Source of the DNA: Alphaproteobacteria bacterium
Lineage (GTDB): Bacteria; Pseudomonadota; Alphaproteobacteria; GCA-2731375
Direction: 5' to 3'
Length of the DNA stretch: 52,057 nucleotides
Assembly: GCA_021776235.1 (NCBI GenBank)
Contig: JAJFGG010000021.1
Coordinates: forward strand, 1-52,057
Part shown: piece by piece, positions 1 through 17,114 of the stretch
Layout of the letters: each line of letters opens with the position of its first letter
Numbering within the stretch: position 1 is the first letter of the stretch
Translations under genes and position numbers: made by a program
The notes under the pieces: model-generated
Databases searched by the model: none
Told to the model about the DNA's origin: nothing
The model's input: only the letters and a program-made list of their open reading frames with translations

Positions 1-25
1 GAGGCCCCTGGGGCCCCCCCCCTAA

Positions 26-175
26 ACCTTCCGGGCCTTCACCAACACCTTCGATCCCACCAAAACAAAGGACGGCGTCCGGGCCGCCCAGATCGCCCGC
101 GTCGCCGACCTGGAGGCCTTCATGGCCTCGTACCGCGACAAACTCAAAAACGGCGGCCTCAGCGCCCTGAATTAG
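26..175 (+). other. open C-terminal tail of an unidentified gene at the window edge
   Basis: The frame is open from just after a stop at 23-25 to a TAG at 173-175. It has GC-rich third positions and reads plausibly as protein, ending in DKLKNGGLSALN. There is no start codon with a ribosome site before it, and the first 25 bases are a low-complexity G/C run that may be an assembly edge or a frameshift. I do not recognise a family. It could be the 3' end of a real gene whose frame is broken by the C-run, or chance coding. Confidence 0.25.
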
Positions 176-338
176 ACCGCTCCGAACCTTCCCAGGGCCC
201 CGCCAGGGCCCTGGCCGCCGGTTCGGCGCCGAGGTCATAGCTGACGCCGCCTCCGCCCTTGACGCCGCCTACGATGGCCTGCCCACCTTCATGTTAACTT
301 TCATAGCGTCGCCGAACAGCTGTCGTTAAACTCGCGCC
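176..338. other. GC-rich spacer before the cyclase array
   Basis: No gene is seen here. Two copies of AGGGCCC, each containing the palindrome GGGCCC, lie near 199-222, and the last 45 bases before the first cyclase ATG are AT-richer and should hold its promoter. No confident -35/-10 pair could be assigned. Confidence 0.4.
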
Positions 339-2093
339 ATGTCGGAAGGAACTCAACGTAGGCTGGCGGCTATCGTAGCCGCTGATGTTGTTGGTTATTC
401 GCGCCTGATGGGTGTGAATGAAGCCGGCACGCTTGCTGCGTTGCGGAGCCATCGGGCGGAACTGATCGATGACAAGATTGCCGAACACGGCGGCCGTATC
501 GTCAAGACCATGGGCGATGGCCTGCTGTTGGAGTTCCCATCCGTCGTTGATGCCACCCAGTGCGTCATCGACGTGCAACAGGCCATGGCAAGACGGAACG
601 AAGCGGTTGATGAGGACAAACGCATCGTCTTCCGTATCGGCGTTCACCTGGGCGATTTGGTTGTTGAAGGTGACGACATTTTCGGTGACGGCATCAATAT
701 CGCCGCTCGGCTTGAGGCCATTTGTGAAGTCGGTGGCGTCGCTATTTCCGGCACCGCGCATGAGAATATTGCCGGTCGTATTGAGGTCGGATTTATCGAT
801 GCCGGCGAGCAGCAACTGAAGAACATCTCCCGTCCAGTCCGGGTTTGGCAATGGACGCCCACGGCTTCGCAAATGCCGACGACCAGAGAGGTGTTGGCCC
901 TTTCGGACAAGCCATCCATCGCCGTGCTGGCGTTCGAAAACATGTCGGGCGATCCGGAACAGGAGTATTTCTCCGACGGCATGACCGAGGACATCATCAC
1001 GGCACTGTCCAAGTTCCGCTGGTTCTTCGTCAGCGCACGAAACTCAAGCTTTGCGTACAAGGGCGCCGTGATCGACATCAAGCAGATCGGGCGCGAACTT
1101 AACGTCCGTTATGTCCTCGAAGGCAGCGTCCGCAAGGCCGGCAACCGCATCCGCATCACGGCGCAGTTGATCGACACGGCAACGGGCAATCACATCTGGG
1201 CCGAACGCTACGACCGTGACCTCGAGGACATCTTCGATCTGCAGGACGAAATCCAGCAGGCCATCGTCACCGCGGTTGAACCAGAGCTGGTCAGCGCCGA
1301 ATACCAAAGGTCGAGCAGCAAGACCTCCAGCGATCTGGCGGCCTGGGACCTGTTGCAGCAGGCCATGTGGCACCTGAACCAACGCACCATTTCAGACACC
1401 GAATGTGCTGTGGCTTTGTTCGAGTCGGCAATCGCCCGTGATCCGTCCATGGCCCGCGCCTATGCCGGCTATTCCCGTGCGTTGGTCAACCAGACCGGGT
1501 ACGGCTGGAGTGCAAGTCCGCAAGAGCATTTACGCAAAGCCAAGGATCTGGCGCTGGAGGCAATCAGGAAAGACGATGGCGACCCGTTCAATCATGATGC
1601 CCTGGGCCGAGTTTTCAACTTTCTCAACGAGGCGGAGAATGCCATTCGCGAACACCAGATCGCGATGAAGCTCAATCCCAACTCGGCCTACACCCATTTT
1701 GGACTGGCGGAAGCATTCTGGATAGCCGGCCGTAACGAAGAAGGGTTGGCCCATGTCGACGTCGCCATAAGGCTCAGCCCGCGGGATCCAATGATGTTCC
1801 TATTCGAGACTATCAAAGGCATATGCCTGGAGGGGCTTGATCGATTAGCCGAAGCGGAGCAGGCCTTGCTTCGCGGCGACAGTTTGAGACCCGACATGAC
1901 AATAATGTTCATCGCCGATTATTATGCTCGGCACGGCCGCATGGCGGAAGCACGAAAGGCCGTGGAAAACGCCCTTGAGCAGCGCCCCGATCTCAGCATT
2001 TCGAGTTTGCGCAATGTCGTTAATCCCTACTACCTGATGCACGGCGACGACTTGCTCAAGAACTTACGAGCAGCCGGGCTGCCGGAAGAATGA
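339..2093 (+). CDS. class III adenylate/guanylate cyclase with TolB-like and TPR domains (array copy 1)
   Basis: 584 residues. Residues 8-170 are a class III nucleotide cyclase domain, which converts NTP to 3',5'-cyclic NMP as a dimer. By alignment with mammalian cyclase motifs the key positions are present: metal-binding D16 (ADVVGYS) and D60 (MGDG), base-recognition K56 and D113 (DIFGD), and transition-state N120 and R124 (NIAAR). Residues 190-320 are the TolB N-terminal/FlgO-like module often fused to such cyclases (SIAVLAFENMSGDP, VLEGSVRKAG), and about 340-575 are tetratricopeptide repeats. There is no transmembrane helix or signal peptide, so it should be cytoplasmic. It is the first of three paralogues joined by 4-base overlaps: its TGA overlaps the next ATG. 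The product nucleotide (cAMP or cGMP) cannot be read from the sequence. Confidence 0.93.
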   Translation: MSEGTQRRLAAIVAADVVGYSRLMGVNEAGTLAALRSHRAELIDDKIAEHGGRIVKTMGDGLLLEFPSVVDATQCVIDVQQAMARRNEAVDEDKRIVFRIGVHLGDLVVEGDDIFGDGINIAARLEAICEVGGVAISGTAHENIAGRIEVGFIDAGEQQLKNISRPVRVWQWTPTASQMPTTREVLALSDKPSIAVLAFENMSGDPEQEYFSDGMTEDIITALSKFRWFFVSARNSSFAYKGAVIDIKQIGRELNVRYVLEGSVRKAGNRIRITAQLIDTATGNHIWAERYDRDLEDIFDLQDEIQQAIVTAVEPELVSAEYQRSSSKTSSDLAAWDLLQQAMWHLNQRTISDTECAVALFESAIARDPSMARAYAGYSRALVNQTGYGWSASPQEHLRKAKDLALEAIRKDDGDPFNHDALGRVFNFLNEAENAIREHQIAMKLNPNSAYTHFGLAEAFWIAGRNEEGLAHVDVAIRLSPRDPMMFLFETIKGICLEGLDRLAEAEQALLRGDSLRPDMTIMFIADYYARHGRMAEARKAVENALEQRPDLSISSLRNVVNPYYLMHGDDLLKNLRAAGLPEE

Positions 2094-3826
2094 GCGCGCC
2101 AACCCGCAAACTCGCAGCCATTCTGGCCGCCGATGTTGCCGGCTACTCTAAGCTTATGGGCGAAGACGAAACCGGCGCGCTGGCGGCGTTGCGTAAACTG
2201 CGCCAAGACCTGTTGCGTCCGACAGTTGAAGAGCATCGCGGCGAAGTCGTCAAGAGTATGGGCGACGGTTGGCTGGTCGAGTTCGCCTCCGTCGTCGATG
2301 CGGTCAACTGCGCCCTTCAAGTCCAAGAAAATCTTGTAAATCACAAGATCATCAAACTCCGCATTGGCATCCACATCGGTGACATCGTTCACGAAGACGA
2401 GGACATCTACGGCGATGGCGTGAACATTGCCGCTCGGTTGCAGGAGATTGCCAATCCAGGTGGTGTTGCGTTGTCGGGTCGCACGAGGGATTTTCTTGAT
2501 AGCAAGCTCGCCAACGGTTTTCGCGATGCTGGTGAGAAACGGCTGAAGAATATTGCTGAGGCGGTACGGGTTTTCGTGACTGGCGATGGTCAATTTGACC
2601 AATCGCCGAGTGTTGATGTTCCTTTGTCCCTCCCTGACAAACCCTCCATAGCCGTGCTGCCCTTCGACAATATGTCGGGCGATCCTGAGCAGGACTATTT
2701 CGCCGATGGTATTGCTGAGGATGTCATTACGGCGCTCTCTCGCTTTCGTTCTTTGTTTGTGATCGCCCGCAATTCTTCATTCACCTACAAAGGAAGTGCA
2801 GTCGATGTTACCCGGGTCGCCCGCGATCTGGGCGTCCGGTATGTGGTGGAAGGCAGTGTCCGCAAAGCCGGGAACCGCGTTCGAATAACGGCACAGTTGA
2901 TTGACGCGGCGAGCGGCAACCATCTCTGGGCGGATCGCTTCGACGGCAACTTGGACGATGTATTTGAACTACAGGACCAAATCACCGAACGGATCGTGTT
3001 CGCGACGGCGCCCGAGATCGAGGCCCACGAGCGCGAACGCGCCCGGCGCAAGCCGCCAGAAAGTCTGGATGCCTGGGAACTCTATCAACGCGGCATGTGG
3101 CACTTTTATAAACTCACGAAAGACGATCTCAATTCGGCGCGGGCACTGTTCGACAAGGCGATAGCGCGCGATCCTGATTTCGCCCTGCCGCGCGCGGGCA
3201 TCGCGTATGTCTGTTACTTCGAAGTATTTCAAGGCTATGACATCGCCTATGATGAGGTCCTGGATCAAGGGCTCGCCGCCGGCGAGCGTGCCGTTGCCTT
3301 GGACGACAAGGACGGTTTCGCCCATCACGTTCTCGGCCGTATGCTGCACCGTACGGGGCAAGGCGAGCGTGCCATCGCCGAACTGGAAAAGTCGATCGCC
3401 CTCAATTCGAGCTTCGCGCACGGCTACTTCGGTCTCGCAGCGGCTCTTGTTTGGCAAGGCCGGGCGGCGGAAGGTATTGTGGCGTTGGACATGTCCATGC
3501 GACTAAGCCCGCAGGATCCGATGCTCTGGGCCATGCAAGGAATGCGGGCATCTTGTTGCTTCAGCCTTGAAAAATATGATGAAGCCGAGGAATGGGCTCG
3601 CCGGGCGGTGAATGTGCGTCCCGACCTCTTCCAAGGTCAGATATATTTGGCAACGGCACTTGTTGGGCTCGACCGGCTGACCGAAGCCAGGGCAGCCATC
3701 GATGCGGCACGGCGCGCGCGGCCCGATCTAACCATTTCTGTTTTTCGCCATATCGTGCGTCACGCCAACGCAGAGTTTCTGGAACCGCGCATTGCGGCCC
3801 TACGCAAGGCCGGACTACCGGAATGA
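2090..3826 (+). CDS. class III adenylate/guanylate cyclase with TolB-like and TPR domains (array copy 2)
   Basis: 578 residues with the same order of domains as its upstream paralogue. The cyclase domain spans about 6-160 and keeps all expected residues: D15 and D59 (metal), K55 and D105 (base), N112 and R116 (NIAAR). The TolB-like module lies at about 185-310 (SIAVLPFDNMSGDPEQD) and the TPR region at about 330-570. The start is set by the ATGA overlap with copy 1. The C-terminus ends in KAGLPE and is followed at once by copy 3, again through ATGA. The TPR half diverges more than the cyclase and TolB-like parts, suggesting that different partners or ligands are sensed by a shared catalytic core (inference). 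Confidence 0.93.
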   Translation: MSAPTRKLAAILAADVAGYSKLMGEDETGALAALRKLRQDLLRPTVEEHRGEVVKSMGDGWLVEFASVVDAVNCALQVQENLVNHKIIKLRIGIHIGDIVHEDEDIYGDGVNIAARLQEIANPGGVALSGRTRDFLDSKLANGFRDAGEKRLKNIAEAVRVFVTGDGQFDQSPSVDVPLSLPDKPSIAVLPFDNMSGDPEQDYFADGIAEDVITALSRFRSLFVIARNSSFTYKGSAVDVTRVARDLGVRYVVEGSVRKAGNRVRITAQLIDAASGNHLWADRFDGNLDDVFELQDQITERIVFATAPEIEAHERERARRKPPESLDAWELYQRGMWHFYKLTKDDLNSARALFDKAIARDPDFALPRAGIAYVCYFEVFQGYDIAYDEVLDQGLAAGERAVALDDKDGFAHHVLGRMLHRTGQGERAIAELEKSIALNSSFAHGYFGLAAALVWQGRAAEGIVALDMSMRLSPQDPMLWAMQGMRASCCFSLEKYDEAEEWARRAVNVRPDLFQGQIYLATALVGLDRLTEARAAIDAARRARPDLTISVFRHIVRHANAEFLEPRIAALRKAGLPE

Positions 3827-5574
3827 GTACGCCAACCCGAAAACTCGCCGCTATCCTGGCCGCCGACGTGGTCGGTTATTCCCGTTTGATGGGCGAGGAT
3901 CAGGCGCGCACGCTCGATGCCTTGCGCCAGTTGCGCAAGGAACTGTTCGAGCCGGTTGTTGAGGAATTCCGCGGTAACGTGGTCAAGCGCATGGGCGATG
4001 GCTGGATCGTCGAATTCGCCAGCGTATCGGATGCGGTCGATTGCGCCATGCGCTTTCAGCTTGGCCTGGCGGACCACGAAATCATTCGCTTGCGCACGGG
4101 CATTCATATCGGCGAAGTGGTGTTCGAGGATGAGGACGTCTTCGGTGAAGGCGTCAACGTGGCCGCGCGGTTGGAAGAACTGGCCGAGCCGGGTGAAGTG
4201 CTGATCTCCGACACCGTGCACAACAGCCTGGATGAAAAGTCGGTGCGGCAATTCAGCGATGGCGATAGCCAGGATTTGAAGAACATTGCGCGTCCTGTTC
4301 AGGTTTGGCGTTGGTCATCTGCCGGAACGCAACAGGCGATACAGGCGGAGACCGAAGAGGCTTTGTCTCTATCCGATAAACCCTCCATCGCGGTACTGCC
4401 GTTCGAGAACATGTCGGGCGATCCGGAGCAGGAATATTTCTCCGACGGCATTGCCGAGGACATCATCACGGCGTTGTCCAAATTCCGCTGGTTCTTCGTT
4501 ACAGCCCGCAATTCTACGTTTACCTACAAGGGCGCCGCAATCGATATCAAGCAGGTCGGGCGCGAACTGGGCGTGCGCTATGTTTTGGAAGGCAGCGTGC
4601 GCAAAGCAGGCAGCCGTATCCGCATCACAGCGCAGCTGATCGAGGCGGCGACGGGCAATCACATCTGGGCCGAACGTTATGATCGTCAACTGGACGACAT
4701 CTTCGATTTGCAGGACGAGATGCAGCAGGCCATCGTGGCTGCGGTAGAACCGGAAATGGCCGGTGCGGAGATGGATCGTGCCGTCAAAAAGGCGCCACAA
4801 ATGCTTGATGCCTGGGACCTCTTTCAACAAGCAAACTGGCATTTCAATCAGCGTTCGCTTGAAGCTACCGATTTTGCGGAACCATTATACGAAAAAGTGG
4901 TGGCGCTTGATCCATCTTTCGCTCCCGCCTACGCCATGCATGCCTGGCTGCTGCACAATGCCGTGGTTTATGGCTTCCGGACGGATACAGAAGTGCAGTT
5001 GGGCAAGGGTTTGGAAATCGGACGGACCGGCGTGTTAAAGGATGACCGGGACGCGCTCACTCATTTCGCCCTTGGTCGGGTCATGACTATGGCCGGCGAC
5101 CTTACGGGCGGTATCCGCGAGCAACGTCTTGCCGTACAGCTTAACCCGAATTTTTCCTTCGCCGCCTGGGGCTTGGGCGAAGCGCTTGGCCGGGCCGGAC
5201 ATCACCAGGAGGCGCTGGAAACGATTGAAGTCGCCCTCCGATTGAGCCCGCGCGATACGCTACGGTTTCTGTTTCTCCGGTTCAAGGGACATAACCATGA
5301 TGCGCTCGGTCAAACGGGTGCGGCTGAAGCGGCCTATCGCGAAGCCGTCGCCCTTAACCACCATGTATCAATTGTGACTCCGAATATCACATTGATCGAT
5401 TTTCTTGTTAGACGAGGACGGCAAGAAGAAGCGCGTGCGTTGATGAGCGACTTGGCCGGCGCGCATCCGGAACTAAGTATCGCTGCCCTGCGTTCTCGGT
5501 CACAACATGTTTGGAGCGCTTTTCAAGAAGGCTGGGGCGATAGACTGGTCTCTGCCGGATTGCCGGAAGAATGA
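3823..5574 (+). CDS. class III adenylate/guanylate cyclase with TolB-like and TPR domains (array copy 3)
   Basis: 583 residues from the ATG that overlaps the copy 2 stop codon. A longer open frame reaches back to 3592, but that part is a shadow inside copy 2, and the family N-terminus MSTPTRKLAAILAAD begins here. Cyclase residues are intact: D15, D59, K55, D105, N112, R116. The TolB-like module (about 190-315) is closer to copy 1 than to copy 2 (EQEYFSDGIAEDIITALSKF versus EQDYFADGIAEDVITALSRF in copy 2). TPR repeats fill the C-terminal 240 residues. The protein ends in AGLPEE, and its stop overlaps the ATG of a decayed fourth copy. Confidence 0.93.
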   Translation: MSTPTRKLAAILAADVVGYSRLMGEDQARTLDALRQLRKELFEPVVEEFRGNVVKRMGDGWIVEFASVSDAVDCAMRFQLGLADHEIIRLRTGIHIGEVVFEDEDVFGEGVNVAARLEELAEPGEVLISDTVHNSLDEKSVRQFSDGDSQDLKNIARPVQVWRWSSAGTQQAIQAETEEALSLSDKPSIAVLPFENMSGDPEQEYFSDGIAEDIITALSKFRWFFVTARNSTFTYKGAAIDIKQVGRELGVRYVLEGSVRKAGSRIRITAQLIEAATGNHIWAERYDRQLDDIFDLQDEMQQAIVAAVEPEMAGAEMDRAVKKAPQMLDAWDLFQQANWHFNQRSLEATDFAEPLYEKVVALDPSFAPAYAMHAWLLHNAVVYGFRTDTEVQLGKGLEIGRTGVLKDDRDALTHFALGRVMTMAGDLTGGIREQRLAVQLNPNFSFAAWGLGEALGRAGHHQEALETIEVALRLSPRDTLRFLFLRFKGHNHDALGQTGAAEAAYREAVALNHHVSIVTPNITLIDFLVRRGRQEEARALMSDLAGAHPELSIAALRSRSQHVWSAFQEGWGDRLVSAGLPEE

Positions 5575-5668
5575 GCACCCCAACCCGCAAACTCGCCGCA
5601 ATTCTGGCCGCTGATGTGGTTGGTTATTCTTGATTGATGGGCGAGGATGATGCGCGTACGCTCGATCC
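5571..5668 (+). pseudogene. decayed 5' remnant of a fourth cyclase copy
   Basis: The ATG overlaps the stop of copy 3 exactly as at the other junctions. Twenty codons match the family start (MSTPTRKLAAILAADVVGYS), then codon 21 is TGA at 5631-5633 where the paralogues have Arg or Lys. One C-to-T change in a CGA codon would explain it. After the stop the same frame still reads LMGEDDARTLD as in the paralogues, then similarity ends near 5668. The remaining roughly 560 codons are gone. This is a truncated, non-functional copy left by duplication or recombination. Confidence 0.85.
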
Positions 5669-5799: not shown

Positions 5800-6849
5800 C
5801 TACTCTATCCGGACCATTGCTGTCGTACTCAGGGCCACCTGCCGGCGGCCTGCCGTGGTTCTAAGGAGCTGGTATTCGCCCTTGTAGGTGCCCGGCGGCC
5901 AGGGGCGCCGGGCCCGTTTGCCGCTATAGCTGAACCAGCGGGCCTTGTGCGCCTTGGCCGCCGGGCCCTGTTTCACCACCAGCACGGTGCCATCGGGGGC
6001 AATGACCCGCAGGACTTCCTCGTCGCCTGGCTGCAGCCCGAAAATCAGCACCCAGAAGACCAGGTTGGGGGCATGGCGGGCAAGCCGCTCATGGCGGTGC
6101 CCGCCCGCGGTGACCTGGTCGCGGCTGGGCACCTGGTCCGTGAAGCCGGCGGCCAGGACGCCGCTGGGGCGATAGGCCAGCTCGGCCAGCAGATCGGGCG
6201 CCCACAGGGGCTTGCCCTCGACGCCGCAGCCGGTTTTCGCCCCGGCGCCAAGAAAGGGATCAACCACCTGGCCTTGGTACCTGACGCCCAGGTGCAGGTG
6301 CGGAAACTGGGTTCTGCCGGACAGCCCGATGCTGCCCAGGGGTTGCTGCCGGCTGACCCGATCGCCCTGGCGCACCCGGACGCTACCCTGGCGCATATGG
6401 CAATATTGGGTCTGCCAGCCGCCGCCGTGCTCTATGACGACGCCGTTGCCGCATTCGCGGCCCTTGTTCCGGCCCGGCTGGTAGACGCCGGGCGCATGGT
6501 CGGGAACGTCATTGCGGGCGCCACTTACCGTTCCCGGCGCCGCCGCCAGCACCGGGATGTCGCGCCGCAGCCAGCCCACATGGGGCAGGCGAAAGTCCGT
6601 GCCCTTGTGGCCATCGTAGACCAGCCGGCCGCAGGTATAGTCCCTGGCGCCGGGTCCGGGATCCCGGTCGACATAGTTCTGGATGCTGCAGACGGCACCG
6701 ATTTTACAAGCCACGGGCAAAGACAGCCGAATGTCCGACGCGGCGGCCGCGCCCGGGGTCGCTGTCATGAAAGCGGCAACCGCGAGGCTGAAACCCAGTA
6801 CGGGCGCAGACCGAATGTGCGCGGCAACCGCGAAAAGGAACTTTGGCAT
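5800..6849 (-). CDS. secreted M23-family zinc metallopeptidase
   Basis: 349 residues. The N-terminus has a signal peptide-like stretch (hydrophobic about 15-30, cleavage likely after the Ala run at 34-37). The LytM/M23 catalytic core follows. HKGTD supplies zinc ligands H81 and D85, and HLHLG supplies H184/H186, with H151 (QYCHM) also in the usual place. Such enzymes cut peptide cross-links of peptidoglycan or act as envelope peptidases outside the inner membrane. The C-terminal 150 residues have no motif I recognise. Several Cys pairs (C48, C54, C73, C133, C150) could form disulfides, consistent with export. It is transcribed divergently from the MFS gene, and a long plus-strand frame over it is only an antisense shadow. 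Confidence 0.88.
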   Translation of the reverse strand: MPKFLFAVAAHIRSAPVLGFSLAVAAFMTATPGAAAASDIRLSLPVACKIGAVCSIQNYVDRDPGPGARDYTCGRLVYDGHKGTDFRLPHVGWLRRDIPVLAAAPGTVSGARNDVPDHAPGVYQPGRNKGRECGNGVVIEHGGGWQTQYCHMRQGSVRVRQGDRVSRQQPLGSIGLSGRTQFPHLHLGVRYQGQVVDPFLGAGAKTGCGVEGKPLWAPDLLAELAYRPSGVLAAGFTDQVPSRDQVTAGGHRHERLARHAPNLVFWVLIFGLQPGDEEVLRVIAPDGTVLVVKQGPAAKAHKARWFSYSGKRARRPWPPGTYKGEYQLLRTTAGRRQVALSTTAMVRIE

Positions 6850-6952
6850 GCTCCAATTCTAGCGCAATGACACAAATTCCCGCCAATAATACTTGGTGTA
6901 ACGCCGGTCCGGGGGTGCTGCCGATTGTGACCAATTGCGTTATGGTGGCGGC

Positions 6953-8326
6953 ATGTCCGCCGATCCGCCCGCCGACAATCCCGCGTCCGCCCCGTCCGGG
7001 ATTTATCCCGGCTGGATCATGGTGGCGGCCTGCTTTGTCATGGCTTTCTTTGCCTGGGGCCTGGGCTTTTATGGCCACGGCTTCTTCATTGCCGCCCTGC
7101 GGGCCGAACGGGACTGGTCTACGGGCCTGTTGTCCGGCGCGGTGGCATCGTTCTGGCTCGTCGGGGTCCCCGCGGCCCTGCTCGCCGGACGGTTGCTGGA
7201 CCAGCATGGGCCGCGCTGGATCGTCCTGTACGGTGCCGTGGCCATGGGCGGCGGCACCATATTGGTTGGCCAGGCGAGGGAAATCTGGCAGGTCTTCGCG
7301 CTGTTCATGATCATGGGATCGGCCTATCCTGCATTGGCGACGGCCGCGATCAGTGCCGCGCTGGTGCCCTGGTTCGGCCGCCGTCTGGGCCTTGCCCTGG
7401 GGCTTGCCCTGTCCGGGGCTTCGGCGGGAGGTGTCCTGATGCCGCCCGCCCTGGTCTGGCTATCATCGGCCCATGGCTTCGATGCGGCGTTGGCGGCCGT
7501 GGGCATCGCTATATTGCTGCTGGTAAGCCCCCTGGCGCTGTTTGTCCTGCGCCGGCCCCGAAACGGAGCGGAAACCGCCGGCGAGCGCGATCGCCCGGCC
7601 GGGCATGCGGATAGCGCGGCACCACCCGGCATGAGGGATTTCATCACCTCGGGGGCGTTCTGGCGCATCGCCGCTGCTTCTACCCTGGCCCTGGCCGCAC
7701 AGGTTGGCTTCCTGATGCATCAATTGCCCGCCCTGGAGGCGGAGCTGGGCATTTCGACTGCCGCCTTCGCGGTCAGCGTGGTGGCCGGCAGCGCCGTGCT
7801 TGGCCGTTTCGTGCTGGGCGGTCTCAGCGCCCGGATTTCCCTGCCGCGTCTGGCGGCCGCCTGTTATCTGATCCAGGCGGCGGGTTTGATTGCCATCATT
7901 TTCGGCCAGGGCCCGATCCTGCTTTATGGCGGTTCGGCGTTGGCTGGTGCTGTGGTCGGTTGTATCGTTATGCTGCCGCCCTTGTTGCTGAGTGCTAAAT
8001 TCGGCGCCAATGGTTACGGCACGGCCTATGGCCTGATCAGCGCCATTATGTTCCTCGGGGCCAGCATAACGACCGCCACGGTGGGAATATTGCGCGATAT
8101 TACAGGCAGTTACATGCCGTCTTTTTTGTTGTTGGTGGGCATGCAGTTGGCCGCCGCCATGGTCATAACCTGGCATCGTTCAAGATCATATGGCAGGCCC
8201 ACGGCGGATGGCAGGCCGGCTTCGTCAGCCGAAGCTTTTCACCAGGCTGGAGGCAATAAGAGTCCAGCCATCGACCAGGACGAAAAAGATCAATTTAAAG
8301 GGCAGGGCGATCATAATCGGCGGTAG
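6953..8326 (+). CDS. major facilitator superfamily transporter
   Basis: 457 residues from the ATG at 6953, with GGTGGCGG just upstream; an in-frame TTG at 6935 is the alternative. About twelve hydrophobic segments are seen, with the MFS loop 2-3 signature GRLLDQHGPRW and a second half beginning near residue 225 after a hydrophilic central loop. Substrate is unknown; the general look is of the monocarboxylate/oxalate-formate branch, at low confidence. The last 34 codons, after the last helix, lie antisense to the 3' end of fliP, so the hydrophilic tail (QDEKDQFKGQGDHNRR) is encoded on the complement of conserved fliP sequence. Confidence 0.85.
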   Translation: MSADPPADNPASAPSGIYPGWIMVAACFVMAFFAWGLGFYGHGFFIAALRAERDWSTGLLSGAVASFWLVGVPAALLAGRLLDQHGPRWIVLYGAVAMGGGTILVGQAREIWQVFALFMIMGSAYPALATAAISAALVPWFGRRLGLALGLALSGASAGGVLMPPALVWLSSAHGFDAALAAVGIAILLLVSPLALFVLRRPRNGAETAGERDRPAGHADSAAPPGMRDFITSGAFWRIAAASTLALAAQVGFLMHQLPALEAELGISTAAFAVSVVAGSAVLGRFVLGGLSARISLPRLAAACYLIQAAGLIAIIFGQGPILLYGGSALAGAVVGCIVMLPPLLLSAKFGANGYGTAYGLISAIMFLGASITTATVGILRDITGSYMPSFLLLVGMQLAAAMVITWHRSRSYGRPTADGRPASSAEAFHQAGGNKSPAIDQDEKDQFKGQGDHNRR

Positions 8327-9031
8327 CATCATCATACCCATGGACATCAGCACGCTGGCCACCACCATGTCGATGACGATAAAGGGGATGAATATCAGAA
8401 AGCCGATTTCAAAGGCCCGCCGCAATTCGCTGACAATGAAGGCGGGCACCAGAACCTGCAGGGGCGTATCGGCCACATTATCGGGAATTGGGTATTTCGT
8501 CATGTTTATGAACACCGACAGATCCTTTTCCCGGACGTGCTGGATCATGAAACCGCGAAAAGGTTTCATGGCCCGCTCGAAGGCCTCGAACTCGTCGATT
8601 TCCTGGTTCATCAGGGGGCTGATGCCGGTTTCATAGGCTTCTTCAAACACCGGTGACATGATGAAAAAGGTCAGGAACATGGCCAGGCTGATCAGCACCG
8701 TGTTGGGTGGCGTCTGTTGCACCCCCAAGGCGCTGCGCAACAGGGACAGCACGATGACAATTCTGGTGAAAGAGGTCACCATGACCAGGATCGAGGGCGC
8801 CAGGCTGAGAACCGTCAGCAGGGCGATAAATTGTATGACCCGGGAGGTGAGCTCTCCGTCGCCGCCCAGATCCAGGTTCAGGGCTTGCGCCATGGCCGCC
8901 GAGGGCAGGAACAGAACCGCCACGGCCAGCAGGGCCACTAGCGCCATGAGGCCCGCCGGCGCCAGGAGGCGGAAACGCAGTACCGTGGCGGTGCTCGCGG
9001 TCCAAAGGCAAGGGTGAGCCCTGGCCGTCAT
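8225..9031 (-). CDS. fliP: flagellar type III export gate protein FliP
   Basis: 268 residues. FliP forms, with FliQ and FliR, the membrane export gate of the flagellar secretion apparatus. Recognised from its near-invariant core: MVTSFTRIVIVLSLLR, QTPPNTVLISLAMFLTFF, a hydrophilic middle (about 130-185) and the C-terminal helix pair ending IFFVLVDGWTLIASSLVKSFG-like. An N-terminal signal-like segment ending SAAMAQA fits the cleaved signal peptide known for FliP. The start is fixed by an ATGA overlap with fliO. Its 3' end is overlapped in antisense by the convergent MFS gene. Confidence 0.97.
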   Translation of the reverse strand: MTARAHPCLWTASTATVLRFRLLAPAGLMALVALLAVAVLFLPSAAMAQALNLDLGGDGELTSRVIQFIALLTVLSLAPSILVMVTSFTRIVIVLSLLRSALGVQQTPPNTVLISLAMFLTFFIMSPVFEEAYETGISPLMNQEIDEFEAFERAMKPFRGFMIQHVREKDLSVFINMTKYPIPDNVADTPLQVLVPAFIVSELRRAFEIGFLIFIPFIVIDMVVASVLMSMGMMMLPPIMIALPFKLIFFVLVDGWTLIASSLVKSFG

Positions 9032-9312
9032 GGCCGGGAACCGCCAACCCGCGTGATGCCCGTTTCAATGACCAGTTCGCTGTCCTGCCCCAGCAAAATC
9101 AGATGCTCGCGGTCATCGCGGCGGATCAATACCAGGCGGCGTCGGGCATCAACGCTTACCGCCTCGATCACCTCCAACCGTTCTGAACGGTCACGCCTGC
9201 TGGTCTGCACGCCGCCAAAGCCCCAGCGCCGGGCCAACCAGGCAAAGGTGCCGATCAAGGCCAGGACAACCAGCAGAGCCAGGACAAAGCGCAGATAGCT
9301 GGACCATTCCAT
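9028..9312 (-). CDS. fliO: flagellar assembly protein FliO
   Basis: 94 residues with one N-terminal transmembrane helix (about 8-28, VLALLVVLALIGTFAWLA) followed by a basic cytoplasmic part containing the FliO pattern LEVIEAVSVDARRRLVLIRRD. FliO helps stabilise FliP during export-gate assembly. The ATG at 9310-9312 overlaps the stop of the upstream gene as TGATG; a TTG one codon earlier is unlikely to be used. It overlaps fliP by ATGA. Confidence 0.92.
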   Translation of the reverse strand: MEWSSYLRFVLALLVVLALIGTFAWLARRWGFGGVQTSRRDRSERLEVIEAVSVDARRRLVLIRRDDREHLILLGQDSELVIETGITRVGGSRP

Positions 9313-9620
9313 CAATCGACGCCTTCGCCGCCGGCGGCTTCAGGTCCGGCGAGATTATCCATCCGCCGTTGCAATTCGTCCCGGGCCATGGCGATGTCTT
9401 CTTCCAGGGCCTCCAGAAGTTGCAAGGTCGCTTGCAGGCCGGGCGCATAACCGCGGGCTGTTTCCATTGGCAGGGCGGCAATTTGTTCGCACAAGCCTTC
9501 AAGAGCACCGGTCAAGGGTGCCACGTCGAAGCTGGCCTCGCGGTTCAGCTTTTCCCGGGCCGCAATGATCGCGTTGCGAATACGGTTCAGTTCCTGTTCG
9601 GGTTGTGGTGCGCTGGCCAT
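9312..9620 (-). CDS. small alpha-helical protein of unknown function, coupled to fliO-fliP
   Basis: 102 residues, predicted entirely helical and acidic, with heptad-like spacing (EQELNRIRNAIIAAREKLNR and LQLLEALEEDIAMARDELQR). There is no signal peptide or membrane segment. It is the first gene of the minus-strand flagellar unit, and its TGA overlaps the fliO ATG. I do not recognise a named family. Position, size and helical character would fit a cytoplasmic flagellar export chaperone of the FlgN/FliT kind, but that is inference from context only. Confidence 0.75.
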   Translation of the reverse strand: MASAPQPEQELNRIRNAIIAAREKLNREASFDVAPLTGALEGLCEQIAALPMETARGYAPGLQATLQLLEALEEDIAMARDELQRRMDNLAGPEAAGGEGVD

Positions 9621-9848
9621 TGCAGAATGTCATTTCCCTGTACTGTCCGGTTCTTGCCAAATTCTGCCCTGGCACGGTTCAGGCATAGTCCTGGCGCAGC
9701 CCGGGCGAAGCGGGACCGGTTCGCGCCCCCAAGTGCCCGTGGCGCTGCCGCCGACCTGAGCTGACCCTGTTATCGCGCTTTATGCTTAACAAAGGCTGAA
9801 TGGCTGCCTGGATAACGTCCGGCCGCGATTGCACCGCAGCGTTTGCGG

Positions 9849-9863
9849 TTAAGGCTTTGTTAA
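9849..9863. promoter_or_regulatory. CtrA-type box TTAA-N7-TTAA before flgB
   Basis: TTAA at 9849-9852 and TTAA at 9860-9863 are separated by exactly seven bases (GGCTTTG), a perfect match to the alphaproteobacterial CtrA consensus. It is the only perfect full site I found in the intergenic regions. If it sits at the usual -35 position, transcription would begin near 9890, which favours the flgB start at 9937 over the one at 9880. cckA, whose product acts upstream of CtrA, lies at the end of the same gene block. Confidence 0.6.
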
Positions 9864-9936
9864 AGGCTATAGGGCGACAATGGCAGACCCACCGAAAGGC
9901 GGCGCGGATGCTGCTGGCGGCAAGGATCAAGGTGCC

Positions 9937-10347
9937 ATGACACTAGGTGACATGAACTATTTTCAGGCGCTGAACACGCGCATGAGCTGGCTGAACCAGC
10001 GTCAGCGGATGTTGGCCGAAAATGTTGCCAACGCCAACACGCCAGGATTCCTGGCCAAGGACCTCGCGGAACCGAATTTTCGCGATCTGCTGCGCAAAAG
10101 CGCGGCCCCGGTCGCCATGGCCAGGACCGCCGGCAAGCACATTCAGGGCGTGCAGGATGCCGGTGCCACCAAATTCAAGGTCCTGGAATCCAATGCGCAG
10201 GCGGACAAATCCGGCAACAGCGTCACCCTGGAAGCCGAGATGATGAAGGTTTCACAGTCGGTGGCCGATCACGAATTGATGTCCAATCTGTACAAGAAGG
10301 GCATGGATTTGATGCGGATTGCCCTTAGCCGGCCGTCGCGGGGTTGA
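9937..10347 (+). CDS. flgB: flagellar basal-body rod protein FlgB
   Basis: 136 residues from the ATG at 9937, the usual FlgB length. The frame is open back to an ATG at 9880 (AGGG upstream), which would add 19 low-complexity residues not found in the family. The conserved N-terminal rod motif is present (QRQRMLAENVANANTPGF at about 22-39). FlgB is a proximal rod subunit exported through the FliPQR-FlhB gate. It starts the plus-strand operon flgB-flgC-fliE-fliQ-fliR-flhB, behind the CtrA-type box. Confidence 0.93.
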   Translation: MTLGDMNYFQALNTRMSWLNQRQRMLAENVANANTPGFLAKDLAEPNFRDLLRKSAAPVAMARTAGKHIQGVQDAGATKFKVLESNAQADKSGNSVTLEAEMMKVSQSVADHELMSNLYKKGMDLMRIALSRPSRG

Positions 10348-10400
10348 TGCACGGATGTCGGCGGCATCTGGCAGTGGTTTGGTTTGGGAGTAACCGGCGC

Positions 10401-10808
10401 ATGGATTTTGACAAGACAATACAGATTTCCGCCGCAGGCTTGCGGGCGCAGGGCGTCCGCATGCGCATCATCGCGGAAAACATCGCGAATGCTTCGACCA
10501 AACCATTGGCGCCGGATCAGGACCCCTACCGCCGCAAGTTAATCAGCTTCAAGAATGAACTGGACCATAACCTAGGTGTCCATATGGTCGCTGTCGATGG
10601 CATCACCAAAGACACCACAGAATTTACCAAGCGTTTCGAACCAGGCCATCCGGGCGCCGACCGGGAAGGCTATGTGAAGATCCCCAATGTCAATGGCATG
10701 ATCGAGATGATGGATATGCGTGAAGCGCAGCGTAGCTATAAGGCCAACATCAAAGTGATCGAGGCAGCCAAGCGCATGATGATGCGCACCATCGATATGC
10801 TGAAATAG
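10401..10808 (+). CDS. flgC: flagellar basal-body rod protein FlgC
   Basis: 135 residues. The start at 10401 has GGGAG ten bases upstream and gives the family N-terminus MDFDKTIQISAAGLRAQG; an earlier in-frame ATG at 10344 overlaps flgB and adds non-family residues. The rod signature RIIAENIANASTKP and the C-terminal FlgC motif (VNGMIEMMDMREAQRSYKAN, then MMMRTIDMLK) are clear. Proximal rod subunit working with FlgB and FliE. Confidence 0.96.
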   Translation: MDFDKTIQISAAGLRAQGVRMRIIAENIANASTKPLAPDQDPYRRKLISFKNELDHNLGVHMVAVDGITKDTTEFTKRFEPGHPGADREGYVKIPNVNGMIEMMDMREAQRSYKANIKVIEAAKRMMMRTIDMLK

Positions 10809-10884
10809 ACGCCGCCATGGTGGCGCCGCTTGCCGCCGCGCGCGGCTATGACGCCTCGTACCAGAGCTGAAGGAGAATAAGGGA

Positions 10885-11202
10885 ATGGATGCCAAGGTCG
10901 TAAATGCCTCGATCGCTTATGTCGAGGCGCTGAAACGGACCATGGATGCCGGCGCCGCCGCACCACAGGATGGCGCCGAAGCGGGGTCGGGCTTTGCCGA
11001 TATGCTGCGGGAAACGATCACGGATACGACCGCCGCCGTCAAGGGGGCCGAGACAGTGAGTATCCAGGCCGCCGCGAAGCAAGCCAACATCACCGATGTG
11101 GTGACGGCGGTTTCCAACGCCGAGATGGCCCTGGAGTCCGTCGTTGCGGTGCGCGACCGGGTCGTCCAGGCCTATCAGGATATTCTGCGTATGCCCATAT
11201 AG
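10885..11202 (+). CDS. fliE: flagellar hook-basal body complex protein FliE
   Basis: 105 residues, preceded by AGGAG at 10871-10875. FliE links the MS ring/export gate to the rod. The conserved C-terminal half is seen: the helix with ETVSIQAAAKQANITDVV followed by VSNAEMALESVVAVRDRVVQAYQDILRMPI, the typical FliE ending. Gene order flgB-flgC-fliE is the standard one. Confidence 0.95.
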   Translation: MDAKVVNASIAYVEALKRTMDAGAAAPQDGAEAGSGFADMLRETITDTTAAVKGAETVSIQAAAKQANITDVVTAVSNAEMALESVVAVRDRVVQAYQDILRMPI

Positions 11203-11222
11203 GGCCGCTTGAGGGTGTAATC

Positions 11223-11489
11223 ATGGGTGTGCCGGAAGTTCTCGACATCGCACGCGATGCGATCTTTACTTTGCTGCTGATCGCCTCGCCCATTATGGGG
11301 GTTGGCTTGGTGGTTGGCCTGATCATTGCCTTGGTCCAGGCCCTGACGTCGATCCAGGAAATGACCCTGGTATTCGTGCCGAAGATATTCGCAATTTTCT
11401 TGGCGCTGCTGGTTTTCATGCCCTACATGATTCAAAATTTGACCTCTTTCATGGACCGGATCGCCCAGCGCATCGTCAGTTTGTCTTAG
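11223..11489 (+). CDS. fliQ: flagellar export gate protein FliQ
   Basis: 88 residues with two transmembrane helices (about 15-37 and 50-70) joined by the FliQ signature ALVQALTSIQEMTLVFVPK. It is part of the FliP5-Q4-R1 export gate. A GAGGG ribosome site lies before the ATG, 20 bases after fliE. Confidence 0.96.
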   Translation: MGVPEVLDIARDAIFTLLLIASPIMGVGLVVGLIIALVQALTSIQEMTLVFVPKIFAIFLALLVFMPYMIQNLTSFMDRIAQRIVSLS

Positions 11490-11517
11490 GACGCATGGTC
11501 ACGACAGGATGGTTCGC

Positions 11518-11667
11518 ATGACGGTCTTGCAGGCTATTTCGGCAACAAAGTTGGCGCACCGCGCTGTCGGCGTGGCGCCAGGCGCACCCGACCCCGCCGG
11601 CCCGCACGGCCTGCACGGCCCGACCACAGGATCAGACGCGCCGGCCTTCCCTGACAACGGGTTTTAG
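11518..11667 (+). CDS. possible 49-residue protein between fliQ and fliR
   Basis: An open frame of 49 codons fills the 187-base gap between fliQ and fliR, with AGGATGG just upstream and a TAG nine bases before the fliR ATG. The product starts MTVLQAISATKLAHR and continues Pro/Gly-rich (APGAPDPAGPHGLHGP). It is preceded by an eight-codon frame (11494) whose TGA overlaps its ATG. No family is recognised. It may be real, a translational-coupling leader for fliR, or chance. Confidence 0.3.
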   Translation: MTVLQAISATKLAHRAVGVAPGAPDPAGPHGLHGPTTGSDAPAFPDNGF

Positions 11668-11676
11668 GCGGCGGCG

Positions 11677-12441
11677 ATGTTGGGGCAAGTGGTACCGGCG
11701 GAGGTATTTGCGTTCATTCTGGTATTTGCGCGTCTCGGTTCGGCCGTGATGCTGCTGCCCGGCATCGGCGAGAACTATGTCTATTCCCGCGTTCGACTGG
11801 CCCTGGCCTTGGCCCTTACCCTGGTGATGTACCCCCTGGTCCGCGGCGAATTGCCGGCCATGCCACATTCTCCCCTGGCCTTGTTCATCCTGGTCATCGG
11901 GGAAGTCATCATCGGTCTTTTCATCGGCGGCGCCTCGCGCCTCTTGATTTCGAGCCTGCATGTCGGCGGCGTCGTCATCGCCTTTCAAAGCAGCTTGGCA
12001 TTTGCCCAGACAGTTGATCCCAATCAGGGTACCCAGGGCGCGGTCGTGAGCGCCCTATTGACCATCACCGGCGTGGTCCTGATTTTCGTTTCCGGCATGC
12101 ATATGCTGTTATTCGCCGGCATCCGCGACAGCTATTCAATGTTCCCCGCCGGACAGCCGCCTCCCATCGCCGATTTCACCCAGTTGGTGGTGCATTTGGT
12201 CTCGTCGTCATTCACCATCGGTTTGAAGATGGCCGCGCCTTTTATCGTTTATGGCCTGGTCTTCTATATCGGCCTGGGCGTTCTGCAGCGCCTGATCCCC
12301 CAGGTGCAGTTGTTCTTCATTGCCGTGCCGGCGCAGATGATGATGGCGTTTCTGATGATTACCTTGGTGCTGTCGTCGTCCTTGATGGTTTTCCTGCGTT
12401 ATTTCGAGGAAAACGCCATTCTTTTTACGGCGGGACCCTAG
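11677..12441 (+). CDS. fliR: flagellar export gate protein FliR
   Basis: 254 residues with six or so hydrophobic helices. FliR motifs seen include FARLGSAVMLLPGIGENYV near residue 14, the loop IGLFIGGASRLLISSLHVGG, QSSLAFAQTVDPNQGTQG and the later GLGVLQRLIPQVQLFFIAVP. It completes the FliP-Q-R gate and binds FlhB. Followed by flhB after three bases, so the two are co-translated. Confidence 0.96.
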   Translation: MLGQVVPAEVFAFILVFARLGSAVMLLPGIGENYVYSRVRLALALALTLVMYPLVRGELPAMPHSPLALFILVIGEVIIGLFIGGASRLLISSLHVGGVVIAFQSSLAFAQTVDPNQGTQGAVVSALLTITGVVLIFVSGMHMLLFAGIRDSYSMFPAGQPPPIADFTQLVVHLVSSSFTIGLKMAAPFIVYGLVFYIGLGVLQRLIPQVQLFFIAVPAQMMMAFLMITLVLSSSLMVFLRYFEENAILFTAGP

Positions 12442-12444
12442 GAT

Positions 12445-13548
12445 ATGTCAGACGATCAGGATAAATCGGAGAAAACGGAAGAGCCGACGACGAAGCGCAT
12501 AGACGAAGCCTTCAAGAAAGGTACGGTGCCGAAAAGCCAGGAAGTCAACCATTGGTTCATGTTGGCTGGCGGTACGGCGGTGCTTGGTCTGTTTACCTCC
12601 GATATAGTCGATGGCGTAATCGCCAATTTCACCCAGTTTCTGGCCGCGCCGCATGCGATCTCGACTGACGCGGGACAATTGCTGCAACTGGCAGAAAGCC
12701 TGGGCTTCAAGGTGATTGGTTTTCTGGCCCTGCCATTGCTGGTTCTGGTAGGCGCCGCGCTGGCCGGAAACCTGTTGCAGCATCGCCTGGTTTTCTCAGC
12801 CAACAAGATGGTGCCGGAGCTGTCCAAGCTATCGCCTTTGAAAGGGGCGAAAAAAATATTCGGCACCAAGGGCGCGATCGACCTGCTCAAGGCGACCGCT
12901 AAAATTGTTGTGATAGGCGGCCTTGTGGTCAGCATCGTTTGGCCGGATATGGCCGATCTGCGCCATGCGCCGACCTTGGAATTGACGTCGGTCGTGGCCT
13001 TCATCCGGCACGAAGCCCTGAAGATCGCCATGGCGGTTCTGGCGGTGATGGCGGTGGTGGCGATCGGCGACACCTTTTATCAGCGCTATGACTGGTTCGA
13101 GAATCTGCGTATGAGCGTCAAGGATCTGAAAGACGAAAGCAAACAATCGGAAGGGGATCCACACGTCAAGGCGAAGATCAGGCAGTTGCGCGGCGAACGG
13201 GCCCGCACCCGCATGATGGCGGCGGTGCCCGACGCGGACGTTGTGATCACCAACCCGACCCATTTTGCCGTCGCCCTGAAATATGAGGCCGAGAGCATGG
13301 GGGCACCCAAGGTGGTGGCCCTGGGGCAGGACAATATTGCCTTGCGCATTCGCGAGGTGGCCGAGGAAAACAATGTCCCCATCGTGGAAAACCCACCCCT
13401 TGCCCGCGGCCTGTTTGCCTCGGCGGAGCTGGATCGGGAAATCCCCGCCGAATTCTTCAAGGCAGTGGCGGAAGTGATCGGCTATGTCATGCGCTTGCAA
13501 GGTAAATTGGCCCGGCGGCCCGGTGCCGCCGGACGCGGCGGTCCCTGA
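12445..13548 (+). CDS. flhB: flagellar export switch protein FlhB
   Basis: 367 residues: a charged N-terminus (KSEKTEEPTTKRIDEAFKKG, the FlhB start signature), four transmembrane helices to about residue 215, a linker, and the cytoplasmic autocleavage domain. The self-cleaving NPTH motif is at N270-P271-T272-H273, inside DADVVITNPTHFAVAL; cleavage there switches export from rod/hook to filament substrates. The C-terminal core (KVVALGQDNIALRIREVAEE, VPIVENPPLARGLF) is intact. Last flagellar gene of the operon. Confidence 0.97.
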   Translation: MSDDQDKSEKTEEPTTKRIDEAFKKGTVPKSQEVNHWFMLAGGTAVLGLFTSDIVDGVIANFTQFLAAPHAISTDAGQLLQLAESLGFKVIGFLALPLLVLVGAALAGNLLQHRLVFSANKMVPELSKLSPLKGAKKIFGTKGAIDLLKATAKIVVIGGLVVSIVWPDMADLRHAPTLELTSVVAFIRHEALKIAMAVLAVMAVVAIGDTFYQRYDWFENLRMSVKDLKDESKQSEGDPHVKAKIRQLRGERARTRMMAAVPDADVVITNPTHFAVALKYEAESMGAPKVVALGQDNIALRIREVAEENNVPIVENPPLARGLFASAELDREIPAEFFKAVAEVIGYVMRLQGKLARRPGAAGRGGP

Positions 13549-13588
13549 TGGGCCTTTGAAAAGGTCGGATGGATGACCATTGGTATCA

Positions 13589-13693
13589 CTAGAGCGATTT
13601 TCAATTTATCGTGGTCGCTTGCGCGACCTAAGTAATTGGTTTAATTGCTCTATCTTAAAGAGTCTGAGCACATTTGCTTCAAATGTGCTCTAG
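13589..13693. repeat. palindromic repeat element (MITE-like) between flhB and cckA
   Basis: A 105-base element bounded by the inverted ends CTAGAGC (13589-13595) and GCTCTAG (13687-13693). Inside lie two hairpins: GGTCGC-TTGC-GCGACC at 13613-13628, and a perfect 11-base-pair stem GAGCACATTTG (13666-13676) with a CTT loop and its complement to 13690. It is AT-richer than its neighbours. It resembles the short dispersed palindromic repeats of alphaproteobacterial genomes, and it could also end flhB transcription. Confidence 0.55.
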
Positions 13694-13761
13694 GTTGGCC
13701 TGAACGGCAGATGGACGTAAGCTCGTTAAGTATAAATCTTTGACAGGGCAGATAGAGGCAG

Positions 13762-16290: not shown

Positions 16291-16486
16291 TGCACTGATT
16301 TATCGCTCTGGAACTGTTTATCGCTCTGGAAATGGAATTCTAGTTAGTTCAGCTCCGGGGCATTGGCTTGGTTGCAATCCGCCTCGCGTCTGCATCAACT
16401 TCATCCGCTCACGCACGTGTGCCATGACGCACGGCTTGCCACGGGGGCAGGCGCGGTGCGGCGACCGACATGCCAATCCGAAGAAC
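16291..16486. repeat. spacer with an 18-base-period direct repeat after cckA
   Basis: TTTATCGCTCTGGAA occurs twice, at 16299-16313 and 16317-16331, directly after the cckA stop codon. The rest of the stretch has no gene that I can support. It adjoins the transposase remnant and may be part of the same mobile debris. Confidence 0.5.
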
Positions 16487-16870
16487 TCAGGGTTGCTTTG
16501 GCGGCCTCGCGTCACTGCCGATGATGATCTGGCGGATAATATGGGCCAGGTACCAAATGGCGTGATAGCCCGCGCCTAATAGCCGCCCGCCCGTTCCATC
16601 ATAACGCCTGCCGGGTAGCCAGCCATCAGGTTCCGCCCGGTTCGCGCGTACTTTGGCGTTCTGAAACAAGATGTCGAGAACGCCGGCAAAGCGTTTGCGG
16701 CAAGTCAGGCAGTGATAGATGCCCGGACGCGTGGTTTGGCCGTGAATGGTGCGGATCGCTTCGCGTTCGCCGCAATGGGGGCAAAAGGGGCCGTCGGCCC
16801 AATGGGCGCAATCGAGGTTGCCATGCGCTTCGATCTGATAGTGACTGTTGCTCTTTGGATCTACCGTCAT
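16487..16870 (-). pseudogene. remnant of a zinc-ribbon (IS1595/ISXO2-like) transposase
   Basis: 127 residues. The N-terminal part looks like the zinc ribbon of ISXO2-type transposases: CPHC (C30, C33), then about 20 residues later YHCLTCRKRF (C54, C57). In intact proteins this is followed by a few more conserved residues (TVTVGTVFE-like) and a 200-residue DDE-type domain. Here the sequence turns to an unrelated tail after residue 62 and stops at 127, so no catalytic domain remains. I read it as a truncated insertion-sequence fragment; a small stand-alone zinc-ribbon protein is the alternative. An overlapping frame at 16626-16895 is a shadow. Confidence 0.5.
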
Positions 16871-16954
16871 GGGCGATTCCCCCCCGTCCCTTCATATGGC
16901 CATGTGCCTGGCCAGGTCAAATACATTACTTTGAACCGGTCCCTTATCCGGCGG

Positions 16955-16969
16955 GAACAAATTTCGAAC
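16955..16969. promoter_or_regulatory. LexA (SOS) box upstream of recA
   Basis: GAAC (16955-16958), seven bases, GAAC (16966-16969): the direct-repeat operator GAAC-N7-GAAC (GTTC-N7-GTTC on the other strand) known for LexA in Alphaproteobacteria. It lies 146 bases before the recA ATG. DNA damage would relieve LexA repression here. Confidence 0.8.
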
Positions 16970-17114
16970 ACAACTCAAAAACCGAAACAAATACAAAGTG
17001 TTAATTGCCTATTGCCAGATTAGAACAAAAAGAGTACATTGCAGGGGTCGCAGAGATTCAACCTTTGCCCCTAAATTGAACCTGGGGGGCTGTTATGGGA
17101 TAAGGGAGCAGGCT

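Follow-up and report, generated by a model that had tools for sequence, protein, structure and literature searches.

A row of adjoining cyclase genes raises the question of whether its members are copies of one ancestor or were brought together from different sources. We addressed this question for an array in a stretch of 52,057 nucleotides of alphaproteobacterial DNA (the window), which makes up the complete contig G000:C88 of a draft genome (6.36 Mb, 174 contigs). The array lies at the left end of the window. Its three full genes each encode a class III cyclase domain (CHD), a TolB-like domain, and a tetratricopeptide repeat (TPR) domain; "TolB-like" is the label of the preliminary description of this DNA, and Pfam names no domain between the cyclase and the TPR. 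In our reading, one polycistronic unit probably encodes several soluble class III adenylate cyclases, every cyclase has a sensor of its own, and the genes were put together from exchangeable halves (probability about 0.72). Its features are as follows.

339-2093, plus strand: gene 1 (head), class A cyclase + TolB-like + TPR, 584 amino acids
339-860, plus strand: CHD of gene 1, class A1
2090-2093, plus strand: ATGA stop/start overlap of genes 1 and 2
2090-3826, plus strand: gene 2, class B1 cyclase + TolB-like + TPR, 578 amino acids
2576-2629, plus strand: cyclase/TolB linker of gene 2 (amino acids 163-180), putative exchange boundary
2642-3823, plus strand: sensor of gene 2 (TolB-like + TPR)
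3823-3826, plus strand: ATGA overlap of genes 2 and 3
3823-5574, plus strand: gene 3, class B2 cyclase + TolB-like + TPR, 583 amino acids counted from the ATG at 3823 (the open reading frame extends upstream to 3592)
5571-5574, plus strand: ATGA overlap of gene 3 and the remnant
5571-5666, plus strand: remnant of a fourth class B gene, with a stop after 20 codons and homology gone after approximately 32 codons

The preliminary description recognized three full paralogues with ATGA junctions and intact class III residues. This was borne out, and the remnant of a fourth gene was added. The remnant reads MSTPTRKLAAILAADVVGYS-stop-LMGEDDARTLD, its homology ends near 5666, and over 96 bases its nucleotide identity is 85-86% with gene 3 as well as with the second gene of another array in this genome (G000:C39). 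The start MSxPTRKLAAIL described for the junctions was found in genes 2 and 3 and the remnant, but not in gene 1, which begins with MSEGTQRRLAAIV and belongs to another cyclase class than its followers.

Histories of the cyclase and sensor halves

The CHDs of the array are 49-59% identical to one another, whereas their best matches in another species reach 94, 88, and 92% (genes 1, 2, and 3). Five genes of four genomes (G000, G002, G007, and G008) have CHDs with 87-94% amino acid identity to that of gene 1, with which they form a clade of six rows (Shimodaira-Hasegawa-like approximate likelihood ratio test [SH-aLRT] 100); the TPR domains of the same pairs are 18-34% identical. Similarly, the CHD of gene 2 is 81-88% identical to six B1 genes (TPR of the same pairs, 31-42%), and for gene 3 five B2 genes reach a CHD identity of 89-93% (TPR, 25-31%). 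Converse pairs also exist. The sensor of gene 2 is shared with G000:C169 (TPR 88%, TolB 85%), the CHD of which is 47% identical. Two further genes, from metagenome-assembled genomes (MAGs; L087:5983-7752 and L086:166-1938), carry the gene 2 sensor (TPR 83-84%) on a third CHD class, 49% identical to gene 2 and 56-60% to C169. Gene 3 and G001:C394 share 75% in the TPR, 92% in TolB, and 52% in the CHD. One sensor lineage (G009:C48:103146, G010:C37, G008:C236, and G004:C20) has TPR identities of 69-77% in all six pairs and CHD identities of 45-64%. In L087, a second family gene lies 170 bases downstream.

Relatives of gene 2 were present in 18 of the 21 genomes searched. We parsed 166 family genes or fragments from ten genomes of the genus and G012; 105 were complete, 98 of them in the genus. 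Among these 98 (4753 pairs), CHD identity and TPR identity were uncorrelated (rho -0.002, Mantel p 0.52), and TolB and TPR were correlated (rho 0.535, p 0.003). Split halves of the same domain gave 0.615 for the CHD, 0.617 for TolB, and 0.412 for the TPR; since these halves correlate, the low CHD/TPR value is no mere lack of signal. Across the domain boundaries, the end of TolB followed the start of the TPR (0.464), and the end of the CHD and the start of TolB were close to independent (0.060). The nearest gene by CHD was also the nearest by TPR in 11 of the 98 genes, and the nearest by TolB was the nearest by TPR in 41. The CHD/TPR value was 0.012 without G001 (60 genes), -0.019 between genomes only, and 0.035 for the 78 solo genes. 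A sensor relative with a TPR identity of at least 55% was found for 50 genes, with a CHD below 75% in 35 of them; a CHD relative of at least 80% was found for 42, with a TPR below 45% in 32.

The same break was present outside the genus. In 43 Bradyrhizobium genes, correlations were 0.128 for CHD/TPR, 0.217 for CHD/TolB, and -0.007 for CHD end/TolB start, with 0.597 for the CHD halves and 0.864 for TolB/TPR. In 47 other genes the CHD halves correlated at just 0.186, too weak to tell.

Approximately unbiased (AU) tests were performed on quick trees of 41 chosen genes, with groups named after the identities had been seen. The CHD tree rejected gene 2 with C169 and gene 3 with C394 (p < 1e-40), and the TPR tree rejected classes A1, B1, and B2 (all p < 1e-40). 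The three window genes, which the preliminary description had taken for duplicates, are not sisters: as one clade they were rejected in both the CHD (p-AU 6e-62) and the TPR (p-AU 1e-53). Because the three CHDs group with different genes elsewhere and the clade is rejected, the array is assembled and mosaic rather than a set of copies of one gene.

Synonymous divergence (dS) differed between the domains of single pairs. It was 0.54 in the CHD and 1.55 in TolB for gene 1/C104; 0.48 in the CHD for gene 3/C39, with the remainder saturated; and 2.5, 2.0, and 0.27 in the CHD, TolB, and TPR for gene 2/C169. The last two values suggest a second break near the end of TolB. Orthologue controls were even along their length (C137/G010:C21, 0.96/0.98/1.11; another, 1.34/1.08/0.79). 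Between G000 and G002, core-gene dS was 1.07 for gyrB, 1.28 for recA, and 0.68 for fliP; these were used instead of the window protein at 42060-44813, a poor core marker. The A1 and B2 CHDs of the two genomes (0.46-0.64) lie under gyrB and recA and near fliP. Transfer between species is thus possible for A1 and B2 and is not indicated for B1.

Loci of different genomes with flank proteins at least 73% identical were congruent in all domains (e.g., G005:C94/G009:C47), except for the array locus G008:C235/G002:C243; the congruent loci show that the method is able to see congruence. At flank identities of 65-70%, three locus pairs were not congruent (G000:C88/G002:C326, G001:C16/G002:C80, and G001:C352/G008:C474). 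In G001:C16/G002:C80, the flank protein is 68-70%, the CHD 79%, and the TPR 23% identical, a possible in-place sensor replacement.

The boundary coincides with the linker. The structure model of gene 2 has a mean predicted local distance difference test score (pLDDT) of 90.6, and its sole stretch below 50 is amino acids 167-177, within the linker. Mean family identity by position falls to 35-37% in the linker, against approximately 70% at the gene start and 70-75% at the TolB start, and the identity of gene 2 to C169 jumps at this point. These sequence comparisons show that, both in this genus and in Bradyrhizobium, conserved cyclase classes have changed their partners among conserved sensor lineages many times, with the disordered linker as the joint.

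Cyclase domain

All three proteins match PF00211 above the gathering score (42.1, 39.5, and 45.1 bits vs. 21.9), and all have TPR matches in Pfam. Class III catalysis employs two metal-binding Asp residues, a substrate-binding Lys and Asp, an Asn, and an Arg, and Lys and Asp at the substrate positions suggest ATP. This set (D-K-D-D-N-R) is complete in the three window genes and exact in 73 of the 105 genes scored in the complete-gene alignment. The CHD model of gene 2 superimposes on 3mr7 of Silicibacter pomeroyi (Z 25.2, root-mean-square deviation [rmsd] 2.0, 40% identity over 164 residues). The fold and catalytic residues resemble those of 3mr7, Ma1120, and Rv1900c/LipJ; however, the chains of the latter align over the cyclase domain alone, whereas the window CHD is fused to a TolB-like/TPR sensor in ATGA-linked arrays. 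Each window protein is most likely a soluble homodimeric adenylate cyclase, the TPR half of which answers a cytosolic ligand or partner.

The substrate-specifying Lys is replaced by Gly, Asn, or Ser in 27 of the 105 genes, a possible change of substrate or mechanism, and in three of these 27 the adenine-contacting Asp is Asn. The follower of the G000:C39 array (G000:C39:6834, L010) has Glu for the first metal-binding Asp (EKDDNR), a change seen in no other of the 97 genes (of 105) that have a residue at this position. The head gene of that array has an intact catalytic set, and the follower is a candidate weak or helper cyclase.

Sensor half

The sensor of gene 2 was folded separately because a fold search with the whole model returned mostly cyclase rows. 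Folded alone, it had a pLDDT of 93.2, and its top Foldseek rows included designed TPRs and periplasmic structures of CadC (3ly7, 3ly8, 3ly9, and 3lya at ranks 3, 4, 6, and 11; E 5e-8 to 4e-7), albeit with an rmsd of approximately 16. The best 50 rows of a second aligner contained other TPR proteins and no CadC, which is no evidence against a likeness to CadC. The sensor part is hit by the NCBIfam model of CadC in all three proteins and by that of HilA in the products of genes 1 and 2, in each case far under the curated cut-off. The sensor half of CadC and HilA consists of a TolB-like subdomain and a helical TPR-like subdomain. The sensor of the window proteins may be of this kind, but the rmsd over the whole sensor indicates a different superhelix. 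The output also differs: CadC and HilA have an N-terminal winged-helix DNA-binding domain, the window proteins an N-terminal cyclase. The window proteins contain no transmembrane-like stretch (top 19-residue hydropathy, 1.28), and no counterpart of the CadC membrane anchor is apparent in them. At most, they may work like a CadC.

Selection for fast change of the TPR was also considered and was rejected, because the TPR is constrained, with a dN/dS of approximately 0.2 in two close pairs (0.06/0.27 and 0.14/0.62).

Arrays and junctions in relatives

The search of related genomes, proposed with the preliminary description, revealed that ATGA-linked arrays recur in G000, G001, G002, and G009.

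G000:C39: 2 genes
G002:C23: 4 genes
G002:C243: 4 genes, the third frameshifted; a fifth after 42 bases
G002:C291: 3 genes, the last cut by the contig end
G009:C48: 2 genes
G001:C407 and G001:C16: 2 genes each, the last of C16 cut
G001:C219 and G001:C505: a gene and a broken or short copy

Followers were defined as genes with a same-strand family gene at -30 to +100 bases upstream, which left out the wider-gap pairs G001:C135 and G002:C80. Twelve of the 14 such genes in the genus lie at exactly -4, more than chance would produce. G002:C243:19653 was scored as a head since the preceding gene is frameshifted; by the shifted-frame end, it also overlaps by 4. In the loci compared outside the genus, adjacent family genes are mostly 7 to 309 bases apart, with one locus (L158) at -4. 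According to PMC6728339, 13 of 14 pairs with such an overlap that were tested in other organisms showed strict coupling. The overlaps at 2090, 3823, and 5571 are consistent with translational coupling of the array. The exact -4 overlap is common to the window array and to the pairs with termination-reinitiation in PMC6728339 and PMC10666635; here, in contrast, it joins paralogues of one signaling family, in rows of two to four.

One shared locus, with upstream genes 80-91% identical, illustrates a change of array length. G008:C235 has a promoter, a gene X, and approximately 30 bases of a next start, whereas G002:C243 has a similar promoter followed by Y-ATGA-X-ATGA and then more; the X pair is 85% identical in the CHD and 86% in the TPR. 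The difference would be explained by the gain or loss of one gene between the promoter and X.

We also considered a rule that arrays are always headed by class A genes. This was rejected: class B genes with a promoter form of their own and no family gene upstream occur in G009:C48, G002:C243, G001:C439, and G008:C235, and class A followers occur in the G001 arrays.

Promoter of the head genes

304-332, plus strand: promoter-like motif of the head gene, with a -35-like TAGCGT (304-309), 17 bases, and a -10-like TAAACT (327-332), 6 bases before the ATG

Among the 101 heads identified in the genus, 46 had the motif T[AT][AC][AGT]CT at -12 or -13, its end lying 6-7 bases from the ATG; in the remaining 55, the exact motif is absent from that position. 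Among the 46, 34 matches to a TGGATT/TAGATT-like box were found at -36/-35. In a scan from -16 to -8, the -10-like motif was found in none of the 14 followers and in two of 382 control open reading frames. These controls are uncurated with unsure starts, and a better control is given by the heads themselves, in which the hits peak at one position (46 of 47 at -12/-13). The motif was present in six of 76 genes from outside the genus. No Shine-Dalgarno-like motif was found in any of the 46 motif-bearing heads. With the usual promoter spacing, transcripts of such heads start at the ATG, and the 46 heads are therefore probably leaderless.

Proposed explanation

We propose that the halves are exchanged by homologous recombination between paralogues, seeded at the gene start and the TolB start. 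The head would be transcribed without a leader, and the followers would be translated by termination-reinitiation. One promoter would then drive several sensors, which feed one cyclic AMP (cAMP) pool in a fixed ratio. The TPR half of each protein may bind a cytosolic ligand or partner and set the activity of its own cyclase homodimer.

Several points weigh against this explanation. The exact stretches shared between classes are short today, and recombination is a presumed route. The genomes of the genus are all fragmented drafts (40-540 contigs), some of them MAGs; the genes were collected by similarity to the window proteins, and 38 of the 98 come from one genome. The correlation between CHD and TolB (rho 0.121, Mantel p 0.04) is small, not nil, and the 20 array members alone retain a weak CHD/TPR coupling (rho 0.26). 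The CHD was kept by 15 of the 50 sensor relatives. The B1 CHDs of G000 and G002 (dS 0.90-1.42) are not under gyrB and recA. Genes 1 and 3 share a TolB-like domain (84%) and a TPR clade (SH-aLRT 99), so some duplication or conversion took place within the array. The X gene of G008:C235 has an in-frame stop near its start, and the array may have been lost from the site in G006 described in the last section.

A stronger version of the mosaic reading is that the arrays are recombination hubs, in which a few constant cyclase cassettes, beginning with a leaderless promoter or an ATGA start, are shared across species and loci and many sensors are swapped at one linker. We regard this as tentative and doubtful on balance, and our confidence was slightly lowered because B1 lacks the low between-species divergence of A1 and B2.

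Alternative explanations

The preliminary description suggested that cyclases of one array may pair into mixed dimers and so combine different sensors. According to PMC10666635, short overlaps are enriched for heteromeric subunits generally. Furthermore, those followers of the G000, G002, and G009 arrays that were included in the CHD tree all fall in its clade B, unlike the A heads where these are present. However, the active sites of all three window genes are complete, so nothing forces pairing. Mammalian cyclases with two halves show complementary loss of active-site residues, which is not the case in the window genes. Close A1 genes also occur without a family neighbor in the DNA examined (G000:C104 and G007:C315), and the arrays G009:C48 and G001:C407 pair like with like. 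We consider a hetero-oligomer operon unlikely.

Plain tandem duplication would make the three genes copies of one ancestor, produced by unequal crossing over, with the TPR diverging fast. The genes have the same order and the same ATGA junction, genes 1 and 3 are related in their sensors, and neighbors in relatives can have nearly the same CHD (94% in G009:C48, dS 0.31). Against this stand the low CHD identities within the array relative to those with another species and the rejection of the three-gene clade in both domains. Fast change of the TPR cannot explain gene 2/C169, in which the TPR, not the CHD, is conserved. The converse pairs, the dS values, and the results of the AU tests refute duplication of whole genes in its simple form, and the broader account is distinctly improbable. 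The unequal recombination of the preliminary description accordingly fails as whole-gene duplication, with the three CHDs grouping with different sets in other genomes, the outcome that the description itself had named as evidence of assembly over duplication, and survives in part in the sensors shared by genes 1 and 3, the neighbors in G009:C48, and array length that changes by whole genes.

An assembly artefact, in which short reads led to the wrong joining of a cyclase piece from one paralogue to a sensor piece from another, is very improbable: although the genomes are drafts, several contigs end inside family genes (e.g., C118 and C147), the neighbors in G002:C23 have an exact 82-base match at the boundary, and single cases elsewhere cannot be vouched for, the longest exact match is 26 bases among the three window genes and 64 between them and the other G000 loci compared, inside domains and not at the boundary, the CHD matches are 81-94% rather than 100%, and the same break is present in the 43 Bradyrhizobium genes, all from strains and none from a MAG. 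The contig ends G000:C118 and G000:C147 (L027 and L079) hold N-terminal and C-terminal parts and may be one gene split by assembly.

Significance

Modular shuffling is known for signaling proteins, the sensors and outputs of which recombine in evolution. Here, in contrast, re-pairing within one genus is so frequent that the histories of adjacent domains are nearly uncorrelated. What sets the present case apart from known domain shuffling is the extent of the re-pairing, together with the arrays linked by ATGA and the heads that are probably leaderless. In the part of the literature searched, we found no account of shuffling or recombination in this cyclase family, in CadC-like cyclases, or in rhizobial cyclase sets.

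This genome has 49 PF00211 matches, which raises the question of why a single cell requires that many sources of the same messenger. Should re-pairing of sensors and cyclases be free, the cyclase half would be a generic output, classification would have to follow the sensor, and families defined by trees of whole genes or of the cyclase domain would give a misleading picture of function. The joints that are tolerated can also be read from the natural pairs, which is useful for sensor engineering. If the arrays are recombination hubs, new pairs of sensor and cAMP output, and whole operons of them, keep arising.

Genomic surroundings of the array

1-176, plus strand: left neighbor, 3' end, orthologue of a 1155-amino-acid gene of G006:C57 (tblastx 71% over 55 amino acids; nucleotide homology stops at 178)
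5800-6849, minus strand: right neighbor, M23 peptidase gene, convergent

The array sits between the 3' ends of these two convergent genes. In G006, both are present approximately 300 bases apart with no cyclase between them, and the homology of the window to G006 ends at 178 and resumes at 5801. Insertion of the array in the window would be the simpler account of this site, with loss in G006 as the alternative. G010 has the M23 gene as well, and the 11.5 kb compared there contain no cyclase relative. A comparison of 25 loci for a mobile element at the array borders revealed no flank protein common beyond a few locus pairs. In G002, a different, solo cyclase lies on the opposite side of the M23 gene. 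On its right, the array adjoins a region (5800-18239) with FliP and FlhB genes and recA at 16998-18239.

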